Shown here in pieces: positions 32,450-42,511 of a DNA stretch of 64,000 bases. The notes under the pieces were generated by a model. The model was not told where the DNA came from, did not search any database, and saw only the letters and a program-made list of their open reading frames with translations. Position 1 is the stretch's first letter. Each line of letters opens with the position of its first letter. The translations under genes were made by a program, and so were the position numbers. This DNA is from Pseudomonadota bacterium (GTDB lineage Bacteria > Pseudomonadota > Alphaproteobacteria > Dongiales > Dongiaceae). Location: positions 1-64,000 of the forward strand of contig JAJYUT010000008.1 in assembly GCA_021792365.1 (NCBI GenBank). The letters are read 5' to 3'.

Positions 32450-33247
32450 CTAGGCCGTCGCCTCGGCCAAGTAGCGACGAACGGCGACCTCCGCGGCGGG
32501 ATTTCGGTTGCTCGGCACGCGCGTGCGGGTGAGATCGAGATAGGTATCGATCGCCCGGACCAATGCTGCCGCGCAGGCGGTCCGATCCGGTGGCGGCGTG
32601 AGGGCCGTGAGCAACGGAACGGATTCCGGGATCAGCTGCTCGATGCGCCGGACCTCGTATTGGCGAAGTCCCGCCTGTTCAGCAAGCAGCGGGCCAAATA
32701 CCTGCCGCCGCAAGAAGGCGAACATGTCGAGCGCCTCGAAGATCTCGCCGCGCCCGATCTTCATCGCGCCGTAATGCACCCAGATCCAGAACCGTTCCTC
32801 GAACCATTCCGGCGGCCGATGTGGCCAGCGTGCCTCGGAGCGCTGCAGAGCATCGCGAATGCGCTCATCCCGCGCCCACACGATAACAGGATCCTCCACC
32901 CGATCCTGGAGCGCATCCGGCGTCACAACCTTGTAGTCGACGTGCAATGTGGGTGTTTCATACAGGCAGATGATCAATCGCGGCTCGCCCACATGCTCGC
33001 CAGTGAAGGCATGCAGCAGCGGTCCGATCTTCTCGGCCATGGCGCGCCGGTCGTCCAGTACGGCCTGATACGAATCAGGCTGTGCCACCAGGACGCAATC
33101 GAGGTCGGAGTACCGGTCCGTCGTCCCATTGATATGTGATCCGCCGAGCAGCAAGCCGATCAGGCGCGGATCCTGCGCCGTGACCTCGGCAATCCTTTTG
33201 AGGAACGCATCGTGCTGGGCCAACTCGCCCGATGTTTTACCCTGCAT
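32450..33247 (-). CDS. Nucleotidyltransferase-domain protein (aminoglycoside adenylyltransferase-like fold)
   Basis: 265 residues. GLLLGGSHINGTTDRYSDLD contains the polymerase beta-type nucleotidyltransferase signature (GS-x10-D-x-D, about residues 36-50) with a further acidic site in TLHVDYKVV. The C-terminal half is helical (WFEERFWIWVHYGAMKIGRG), as in AadK/ANT(6)-type and related enzymes. The true substrate is unknown; it should not be taken as a resistance gene on this evidence. It ends one base after the MFS stop on the opposite strand. Confidence 0.75.
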   Translation of the reverse strand: MQGKTSGELAQHDAFLKRIAEVTAQDPRLIGLLLGGSHINGTTDRYSDLDCVLVAQPDSYQAVLDDRRAMAEKIGPLLHAFTGEHVGEPRLIICLYETPTLHVDYKVVTPDALQDRVEDPVIVWARDERIRDALQRSEARWPHRPPEWFEERFWIWVHYGAMKIGRGEIFEALDMFAFLRRQVFGPLLAEQAGLRQYEVRRIEQLIPESVPLLTALTPPPDRTACAAALVRAIDTYLDLTRTRVPSNRNPAAEVAVRRYLAEATA

Positions 33248-39778: not shown

Positions 39779-40267
39779 TTACTTCTTCGCGACCTTGGAG
39801 ACGGTCGCCTTGACGTCCTCGATGTTGGCGATCATGCGCTTGCTCAGCACGTCGGCCGCCTCGGCCTGCGACTTCTGCAGGGTGCCGACAAGCTCGCGCA
39901 GGTTGGTGACCGCCTCCTCGAACGCGGCCTTGGTCAGGTCCGCCTGCTTGGCGAACTTGTCCTCGGGGGTACCGGCGGCGGACAGCTCCTTGGTGACCTT
40001 GCCGAACTCCTCGAACGCCTTGCGGGCGATCTCGGCCTGGCGCTGCGCAACCGCCTTGACGCCGTCGAAGGCGAGCTGGTTGGCGGCGGTCAGGGCCTCG
40101 ACGTTCTTGCGCTGGAGCGCGAAGACCGCGTCGAAGTCGAAGCTCGGCGTCTTGCCGTTCACGAAATACTTGCCGAAGTCGCCGGCCCACTTGCTGAACT
40201 CGGCCTGGAACTGGGTGAAGTCGGGAACCTTGACGAACTCGTTCTCGACGATTTGTGCCTTCGCCAT
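39779..40267 (-). CDS. phaP: Phasin-family protein (polyhydroxyalkanoate granule-associated)
   Basis: 162 residues, with GAGGAGACAGACAG before the ATG. The phasin_2 pattern is clear: amphipathic helices with FNxxxxFALQRKNVEALTAA-type repeats (residues 48-68), AVAQRQAEIARKAFEEFGKV and LQKSQAEAADVLSKRM. It ends in a Lys/Val-rich tail (KATVSKVAKK). Phasins coat PHA granules and set their number and size. The gene is monocistronic with a strong terminator. Its promoter overlaps an inverted repeat resembling PhaR operators. No PHA synthase is in the window. Confidence 0.93.
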   Translation of the reverse strand: MAKAQIVENEFVKVPDFTQFQAEFSKWAGDFGKYFVNGKTPSFDFDAVFALQRKNVEALTAANQLAFDGVKAVAQRQAEIARKAFEEFGKVTKELSAAGTPEDKFAKQADLTKAAFEEAVTNLRELVGTLQKSQAEAADVLSKRMIANIEDVKATVSKVAKK

Positions 40268-40341
40268 CTGTCTGTCTCCTCAGGCGTGTTATCCAATGTC
40301 TCGGTGCCGCGCCCGGCTACCGAATGCTCTGCTCTAAGGAG

Positions 40342-40391
40342 AATATTGTGCAGCGCAGCAAAAAGGTCAAGGCGATTTTTGCTGCGCTGCA
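40342..40391 (-). promoter_or_regulatory. Phasin promoter with overlapping 16-bp inverted repeat (candidate PhaR operator)
   Basis: On the minus strand TTGACC (40370-40365) and AATATT (40347-40342) are separated by exactly 17 bp, a sigma-70-like promoter. A perfect inverted repeat overlaps it: TGCAGCGCAGCAAAAA at 40349-40364 and its complement at 40376-40391, with an 11-bp spacer that holds the -35 hexamer. The first arm fills the -35/-10 spacer. PhaR-type repressors of phasin genes bind TGC/GCA-rich sites of this kind, so bound repressor would block polymerase. Confidence 0.7.
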
Positions 40392-40426
40392 AAAAATCTC
40401 GTTTTTAATCTATATTAATCACACGA

Positions 40427-41092
40427 TTAGGCCCTGCCGCGCCGCGCCATACCGAGCCAGCGGTCCACCTGACCCAGCCGCTTGTCGAGCTCCGCCATGG
40501 TCTTGGAGAGATCGGCCGTATCGTCCTTCAGCCAAACCCGGAGCGCCCAGGCATAGATCGCCCCAAGGCCCTCGATACGGAAGGCGCCCCTGAACCCGGA
40601 GGCGGAAAGGCCACCCGCCTCCAGCATGTTGGCAAGAGAGCGGTGGAGTTGGAACATGAGGCAGCCCGCCTCCTGCGGCGTCCGCGGCAGTTCCCAGGAC
40701 AGGGCGGCATAGGCCTCCTTGTGCTCATTAAGAATATCGAGCCGGCGCATGATGAGGTCGAAGAGCCTGTCCTTCACCGAGCCGTCCAGCGGATCCTCTT
40801 CCAGGCTGGCGAACAGCCGGGAATCGATGTCACGGCTGATCCCTGTCAGGATTGCGGCCTTGGAGGGATAGGCGTCGTAGGCGGCGGCGAGGCTGAGCCC
40901 GGCATCCTTGGCGATCTCGGCATAGGACAGATCGCGCCACCCGCCGGCTGCGGCCATGCGCAGCAGCGCCACACGCAGGGCGGCCTTGGGATCGCCGGCA
41001 GCGCCCTGGGGCTGTGGGCGAGATTTGGATCCGGGCTTGGACCCGGATTTTGGGCGTGCCGACTTTGCTGTCTTGCGCGCGGACTTGGCCAT
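40427..41092 (-). CDS. TetR/AcrR-family transcriptional regulator
   Basis: 221 residues from ATG 41092 (MAKSARKTAKSAR), with GGAG six bases upstream; ATG 41104 has its AGGA too close. A Lys/Ser/Pro-rich basic N-terminal tail of about 35 residues, unusual for the family, precedes the helix-turn-helix (LSYAEIAKDAGLSLAAAYDA, then YPSKAAILTGISRDID). The C-terminal ligand domain is helical and ends in a basic segment. It lies upstream of the phasin on the same strand but is separated by the phasin promoter. The target is unknown. Confidence 0.88.
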   Translation of the reverse strand: MAKSARKTAKSARPKSGSKPGSKSRPQPQGAAGDPKAALRVALLRMAAAGGWRDLSYAEIAKDAGLSLAAAYDAYPSKAAILTGISRDIDSRLFASLEEDPLDGSVKDRLFDLIMRRLDILNEHKEAYAALSWELPRTPQEAGCLMFQLHRSLANMLEAGGLSASGFRGAFRIEGLGAIYAWALRVWLKDDTADLSKTMAELDKRLGQVDRWLGMARRGRA

Positions 41093-41173
41093 GACTTGCT
41101 CCATTCCTGCGCTGAATCTTAACGCTACTCTGGCGCGGGATGGAGGCGAGAGCAAGACTTTGAGAAGGCGGGC

Positions 41174-42511
41174 CTACTTGACGGAGATCACCTGGCCGCC
41201 GGTGATCCGCCGCAGGTCCGCCGGGGTGAGGCGGAAGACCGCGTTAGGTGACCCGGCCGCCGCCCAGATCTCCTCATATCGGTCGAGGTCGGCGTCGATG
41301 AAGACGCGCACCGGACCGGTATGGCCGACCGGGGCGACCCCGCCGATCGCGAAGCCCGTCGCGGCGCGCACGAAATCGGCATCGGCGCGACCGACCTTGC
41401 CGCCCAGCGCCGCTTCCAGTTTCTTCTCGTCCACCCGGTTGGTCCCGCTCGCGATCACGAGGATCGGCTGGTTGGCGGCCTTGGCGCGGAAGACCACCGA
41501 CTTGGCGATCTGCGCGACGGTGCAGCCGATCGCCGCCGCCGCATCGGCGGAGGTGCGGGTGGAGGCGTCGAATTCCCTGATCTCCGCCTCAAGGCCGTGG
41601 CGGGCAAGCGCCTCGCGCACGCGGGCTACGCTGCCCTTCGGCTCCGGGCCATTGGCCATCGCTTTGCCTTCCGCGATCTCGCGCCCGCGGCGGGTCGCGG
41701 CGGCGATGGCCTTGGTCATCAGGGGCTGCAATCCGTCGGGCGCCATCAGGACCGCCAGGGCTTCGATGGTCGTGCCTTTCGGGCTCATCACGGCCTCGCG
41801 CAGCCTGGTGGCCGAATCGGAGGACCGATGCGCCAACTCGCCGGAGCCGGTCACCGTCTCGCGCGCCAATTGCATGGCGAGATCGGCGGGCAGACCCGCC
41901 GCGCGGCCGGCTTCCGCCAGGCACTCGATCAGCAGGAACACATAGGCCGGTCCGCCGCCGGAAAGCGCCGTGACGGCGTTGATCTGGTCCTCCTCGTCGA
42001 TCCAGCCGACCTTGCCGACGGCGGAGAGAAGCTGCCCGCACAGATCGAGCGTGGCAACCGGGATATTCGGATCCCGGAGGATGACGCTCATGCCGCGGCT
42101 CACCGCGGCCGGCGTGTTGGGCATGGAGCGGACCACGGCCGCATCGCCGCCCAGCTTGTCCTTCAAATAGGCGACGGTCTTGCCGGCGGCGATCGACAGG
42201 AACACCGTGCCCGGCCCCGTGGCTTTCTGGGCGAATCGGCGATAGGCGGGCAGCGCCTCGTCCATGAATTGCGGCTTGATCGCCAGGAGAACGATGGCGG
42301 GCTGCAACCCTGCGGGCAATCCGTCGATCGCGCTCACGATGGTGACGCCGCGAGCCTGGACATCGTCCAGGTCCCGCGGCGCCGGATCCACCACGAACAC
42401 GTCCTTGCCGGCGATGCCGCGGCCGAGCCAGCCACGCAGCAACGCCCCGCCCATCTTGCCGCAGCCCACCAGCAAAAGCGGGCCGGGCAAGACGATAGTC
42501 TGGTCACTCAT
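41174..42511 (-). CDS. proC: Pyrroline-5-carboxylate reductase fused to a YbaK/ProX-type aminoacyl-tRNA deacylase domain
   Basis: 445 residues in one open frame. Residues 10-280 are a complete P5C reductase: Rossmann start LLLVGCGKMGGALLRGWL, LLAIKPQF, RSMPNTPAAVSRG, LSGGGPAYVFLLIE and VMSPKGTTIEAL. This domain makes proline from 1-pyrroline-5-carboxylate. A short linker (residues 281-292) leads to residues 293-445, a YbaK/prolyl-tRNA deacylase domain with the catalytic Lys at 337 (IAKSVVFRA), ASGTNRVDEKKL and GGVAPVGH. Free-standing members clear Cys- or Ala-tRNA(Pro). An ATG at 41659 (M285) has GGAAGG seven bases upstream, so the second domain may also be made alone. It follows ybjN by 8 bp. 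Confidence 0.9.
   Translation of the reverse strand: MSDQTIVLPGPLLLVGCGKMGGALLRGWLGRGIAGKDVFVVDPAPRDLDDVQARGVTIVSAIDGLPAGLQPAIVLLAIKPQFMDEALPAYRRFAQKATGPGTVFLSIAAGKTVAYLKDKLGGDAAVVRSMPNTPAAVSRGMSVILRDPNIPVATLDLCGQLLSAVGKVGWIDEEDQINAVTALSGGGPAYVFLLIECLAEAGRAAGLPADLAMQLARETVTGSGELAHRSSDSATRLREAVMSPKGTTIEALAVLMAPDGLQPLMTKAIAAATRRGREIAEGKAMANGPEPKGSVARVREALARHGLEAEIREFDASTRTSADAAAAIGCTVAQIAKSVVFRAKAANQPILVIASGTNRVDEKKLEAALGGKVGRADADFVRAATGFAIGGVAPVGHTGPVRVFIDADLDRYEEIWAAAGSPNAVFRLTPADLRRITGGQVISVK
41667..41672 (-). promoter_or_regulatory. Internal ribosome binding site at the proC/ybaK junction
   Basis: On the minus strand GGAAGG lies seven bases before an in-frame ATG (41659-41657, M285 of the fusion). 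It is placed exactly in the linker between the two domains. Initiation here would yield a 161-residue stand-alone YbaK-type protein. This is a sequence-based inference. Confidence 0.5.

Follow-up and report, generated by a model that had tools for sequence, protein, structure and literature searches.

PhaR is a known repressor that senses the stored bioplastic (PHB) and controls its granule-coat protein. Operators have been described in several bacteria, and the following accounts draw on the available portions of the cited papers. In Bradyrhizobium diazoefficiens, two PhaR boxes at phaP1 are documented by DNase I footprinting and gel shift (PMC6201568, PMC10888616), and altering either box weakens PhaR binding (PMC10888616). 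In Sinorhizobium meliloti, AniA/PhaR recognises a 21-bp palindromic motif, two copies of which flank the −35 of phaP1 and of phaP2; the gel shift was lost when the palindromes were changed, and one box sufficed for binding (PMC12542648). According to the same source, no PhaR box was found at phbC of S. meliloti, while phaZ has one (PMC12542648). Ralstonia eutropha phaP1 carries two PhaR sites, BS1 and BS2, which are described by a 17-bp motif and include one immediately preceding the −35 (PMC12849132), and the PhaR site of Rhodobacter sphaeroides is given as CTGCN3GCAG, as quoted in PMC12542648.

The locus under study lies in the window, that is, the whole stretch of 64,000 nucleotides that was analysed. 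Its phasin gene (39779..40267, minus strand, 162 aa) matches Phasin_2 (Pfam, E 7.4e-21) and NCBIfam TIGR01841 (69.9 bits, cut-off 30.2), confirming that the gene downstream of the promoter is a phasin, and its nearest named relative, with 90% identity, is that of the alphaproteobacterium Dongia deserti. The only sigma-70-like site found between 39700 and 41200 (mean of 0.2 in 50 shuffles) is on the minus strand and consists of the −35 hexamer TTGACC (40370-40365), a 17-nt spacer and the predicted −10 hexamer AATATT (40347-40342), both located by consensus scan. The promoter is as the original prediction described it, with a consensus score of 9/12 and a −10 hexamer that matches at just 4 of 6 positions. 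From the −10, the phasin transcript would be expected to begin near 40335.

This promoter contains a perfect inverted repeat (40349..40391), the arms of which, at 40349-40364 (TGCAGCGCAGCAAAAA) and 40376-40391 (TTTTTGCTGCGCTGCA), are exact reverse complements of 16 bp with 11 nt between them; pairing of the arms extends to 22 nt at 91%. The repeat is real by a chance test, as a perfect 16-bp inverted repeat with a gap of up to 40 occurs once in the window and in none of 100 dinucleotide shuffles. One arm lies within the spacer, covering 16 of its 17 bases rather than filling it exactly as had been proposed, and the coordinates place the mirror arm just upstream of the −35, as predicted. There is no second exact copy of the 16-mer in the 5.43-Mb genome, and a search allowing up to three mismatches, with 63 places in the whole genome versus 37 for the reversed control, was too loose to use.

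Each arm contains one predicted PhaR box, TGCRNYGCA, that fits the published PhaR consensuses. The putative upstream box (box U) has its core at 40383-40391 (TGCGCTGCA / TGCAGCGCA) and an extended 17-bp form at 40379..40395, and the putative spacer box (box S) has its core at 40349-40357 (TGCAGCGCA / TGCGCTGCA) and an extended 17-bp form at 40345..40361 that touches the −10; there are 34 bp between the cores. The 21-bp S. meliloti motif (WNWD2NYGCRNYGCRNH2WNW) is present at 40343-40363 and 40377-40397, and has three matches in the window against 0.23 expected, a number reached in 0 of 100 shuffles. The 12-bp Bradyrhizobium consensus TGCRNYGCASMA is matched with no mismatch at 40349-40360 (plus strand), 40380-40391 (minus strand) and 40346-40357 (minus strand), a result that is weak when taken alone (four matches in the window versus 1.21 expected, with 6 of 100 shuffles reaching four). 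The last of these matches, TGCGCTGCACAA, is identical to the phaP4 site defined by footprinting in B. diazoefficiens. The 17-bp R. eutropha motif fits box U with no mismatch and box S with one. The idea that the repeat is longer and more regular than described PhaR sites is not supported, as both boxes agree, just as they stand, with the 12-bp and 21-bp consensuses of the literature.

Compared with the parts of the published descriptions available, the arrangement resembles those of B. diazoefficiens and S. meliloti. As at B. diazoefficiens phaP1, two TGCRNYGCA boxes flank the phasin −35 and the near one reaches the −10, whereas the Bradyrhizobium 12-mers are separated by 17 nt (29 bp from one start to the next, by the listed positions) compared with 34 bp for the cores here, and the available text on phaP1 makes no mention of a perfect inverted repeat such as that in the window. 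As at S. meliloti phaP1 and phaP2, two palindromic copies with A/T arms are placed around the −35, but those boxes are, by the coordinates in the source's table, 18 and 28 bp apart rather than 34 bp. The R. eutropha motif, YTKNTGCRNYGCANMAR, has nearly fixed positions 1-4 and 7, and its site upstream of the −35 corresponds to that in the window; its second site, unlike box S, is located around the transcription start and not in the spacer, as the source describes it, and in this it resembles the genera of the Dongia family that combine an upstream box with a downstream one. The R. sphaeroides site, as quoted, is likewise palindromic, TGC-rich and bound by the same regulator family, but the strict sequence CTGCN3GCAG is absent from the phasin locus, its sole match in the window being at 32566. 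With high confidence, we read this region as a PhaR-repressed phasin promoter with two PhaR boxes, one on either side of the −35.

Conservation was followed by searching for phasin relatives in 61 genomes, which gave matches in 35, including 16 of the 17 genomes of the family (the window's own genome counted). Regions upstream of these relatives were aligned by eye and by script, with start codons assigned by script as the nearest in-frame ATG. Two to three copies of TGCRNYGCA are found within 200 bp of the start in all 16 family phasin loci, giving 34 boxes versus 0.58 expected in shuffles (the largest of 500 runs had 4), in loci that are related by descent and are not independent samples; the rest of these loci holds four boxes in 50,031 bases. 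The sameness of the box core is due to its use as the search pattern, but this does not apply to the flanking positions, where T at −7 and A at +7 are seen in 67 of 68 half-sites. These are the same extra positions as in the R. eutropha motif.

Within the genus, two cores 34 bp apart lie around the −35, with TTGAC between them, in 4/4 genomes. This 34-bp two-box pattern occurs once per genome in all four and is absent from the 13 other genomes searched, and the reversed-pattern control gave no match in any of the 17. Across the family, box spacing ranges from 27 to 63 bp, indicating that there is no fixed geometry; placement of the boxes on the same face of the helix was considered and dropped, as these spacings do not share a helical phase. 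The genus Dongia has one box upstream of the −35 and one in the spacer (U+S), upstream and downstream boxes (U+D) are found in other genera, and two loci, L018 and L020, carry a box at all three places (U+S+D), the downstream one lying past the −10. Given these differing spacings and the three-box loci, the layout seen in Dongia is not the only one. L018 and L020 look intermediate between U+S and U+D. Outside the family, phaR-bearing genomes provided 12 phasin loci, in a set where the starts of L036 and L040 are doubtful; eight of the 12 have a strict box no more than 260 bp from the assigned start, and the other four (L033, L034, L037 and L041) have none at that distance. The strict box is also absent in both outside phasin loci from phaR-less genomes (L039 and L043), a sample to which the phaR-less phasin genomes G022 and G029 do not belong.

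The same loci bear on whether the exact symmetry is meaningful. If it were itself selected, the repeat would be one 43-bp operator clamped by one PhaR oligomer. The 16/16 identity of the arms and the closed arrangement of boxes U and S around the −35 speak for this, as does the statement, in the part of the source available, that R. eutropha fragments with more than one site shift at lower PhaR concentrations (PMC12849132). However, the facing 16-mers, identical at 16 of 16 positions in the window, share just 11, 12 and 12 positions in the three other loci of the genus and 7-13 of 16 across 15 other family loci. A shared consensus alone can yield identity: of 1,908 arm pairs drawn from different promoters, 0.3% are identical over all 16 positions and 30% have at least 12 in common. 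A single selected operator is therefore extremely improbable, and the long inverted repeat was rejected as the operator, its perfect form being confined to the window. As the arms of the relatives disagree and identity arises by chance at this rate, the long symmetry is explained by near-palindromic boxes with A/T flanks. The exactness of the mirroring looks accidental and peculiar to one species, in which two ordinary boxes happen to have the same variant. The perfect 16-bp repeat proposed as a functional geometry is thus not conserved, and two separate near-palindromic boxes are kept instead. It is also conceivable, but unlikely, that the second box moved between positions in the family and that the U+S pair of the window became a closed, symmetric 43-bp operator; if so, this operator would give tighter, more switch-like control, and regulation would presumably have been kept through the box moves.

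Upstream of the phasin gene, on the same strand, is a TetR-like gene (40427..41095, minus strand; TetR_N 23.9 bits against a cut-off of 24), the product of which had been named as another candidate regulator. The protein also has a weak likeness to the model of the COQ9 family, which it matches with 19.4 bits, well short of the cut-off. At many alphaproteobacterial phasin loci a TetR-like gene is kept as a neighbour, and in L034 the two genes are almost contiguous. Elsewhere in the window, a single open frame at 41174-42511 (minus strand) combines pyrroline-5-carboxylate reductase and aminoacyl-tRNA editing domains, through a possible fusion or a missing stop. Binding of the inverted repeat and repression of the phasin by this protein, rather than by PhaR, would be in line with the presence of a TetR match inside 10 of the 16 family phasin loci and 9 of 14 loci from outside the family. 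The boxes, however, stay with the phasin and not with TetR: all six phasin loci of the genus g6 have no TetR match within the locus and yet carry two to three boxes; for five of them the TetR relative is found at a distance of 8.6-23.4 kb on the phasin contig, and for the sixth it is on a different contig. Boxes are found within 300 bp upstream of just 3 of 17 TetR relatives and there is none before the window's own TetR gene, so that the sites neither travel with TetR nor sit at its promoter, as would be expected of a TetR operator. Boxes of this kind are also located upstream of phaR and match published PhaR sites. Repression by TetR through the repeat is accordingly very unlikely, and these comparisons speak against TetR as the reader of the boxes; the protein may have a role elsewhere or an additional one, TetR relatives having been found in 19/19 genomes searched.

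The repeat could alternatively act in RNA, as a hairpin that terminates the TetR transcript or protects it. Minus-strand RNA from the window does fold strongly here (−31.7 kcal/mol, z −6.4 over 91 nt), and the fold begins approximately 30 nt past the TetR stop. A terminator scan was negative at the site, no T run follows on the minus strand, and the G+C-rich stem and subsequent T run of an intrinsic terminator are not found together. Furthermore, the three other genus loci gave z-scores of −1.16, −2.57 and −0.87 over 71-nt stretches, which are shorter than that of the window; the strong fold is not kept in the genus, whereas the boxes are. A hairpin function is hardly credible on this evidence, and the two-box PhaR operator remains the preferred reading.

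No phaR gene lies within the window, as originally noted, and the gene is encoded elsewhere in the genome, at C9:69989-70168. Its product has PHB_acc_N and PHB_acc domains and matches the TIGR01848 equivalog (148.7 bits, cut-off 109.45), and phaR is present in 17/17 family genomes. A box is found upstream of phaR in 10 of the 14 family phaR loci fetched, including the window's own genome, and in none of three phaR loci from outside the family. This box is in keeping with possible self-regulation of phaR. No PhaR relatives were found in viral contigs.

Looking for further copies in the genome, as suggested with the original prediction, gave a box at phaR but no repeat of the exact 16-mer, and no strict box lies just upstream of phaC, of phaZ or of the second phasin-like gene. 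The lack of a box at the phaC-type gene is shared with S. meliloti, where phaZ, in contrast, is reported to have one. Two stricter-box scans of the window's own genome found 19 places versus 3 in the control and 19 versus 1, many of them inside open frames; context was read for all 19 places of the first scan, for 11 of 15 loci of the second and for five from the 16-mer search. At L114 (G000:C3:288180-288196), an isocitrate dehydrogenase gene (Iso_dh E 1.1e-62) has its likely start approximately 57 bp past the end of the box ATTTTGCGATGCAACAT, which may connect PhaR with central carbon metabolism. At L061 (G000:C28:956540-956556), the box TTGCTGCGGTGCACAAT is followed, after approximately 50 bp, by a likely start of panB (Pantoate_transf E 9e-109); the panC-panB operon of S. 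meliloti is reported to carry a PhaR box in the accessible part of PMC12542648. At L123 (G000:C21:911933), two boxes 21 bp apart lie in a stretch with a dehydrogenase-like frame on one side and an opposite-strand frame on the other.

Overall, the prediction that the phasin promoter has a repressor operator was supported, as was the choice of PhaR as leading candidate, while the repeat geometry and the TetR alternative attached to it were not. The promoter has boxes that fit the 12-bp and 21-bp consensuses, in two copies around the −35, they are conserved, and phaR is in the genome. By analogy with published PhaR systems, PhaR would bind these boxes, repress the promoter and be released by PHB. 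When there is no PHB, PhaR would occupy boxes U and S and keep RNA polymerase off; as PHB granules form, PhaR would be drawn to the granule surface and the boxes emptied, allowing the phasin to be made and to coat the granules.

The operator pair belongs to a known kind, paired PhaR boxes at the phasin −35 having been published for Bradyrhizobium and Sinorhizobium. This locus adds a predicted PhaR operator pair in a lineage whose nearest named relative is Dongia deserti and for which a full-text literature search found no PhaR work. It holds little surprise for the specialist, and its practical use would be as a ready promoter for a PHB-responsive reporter. The locus illustrates that a striking perfect repeat can arise by coincidence from two ordinary boxes, and the family as a whole indicates that box pairs persist while their spacing and their placement in the promoter change.
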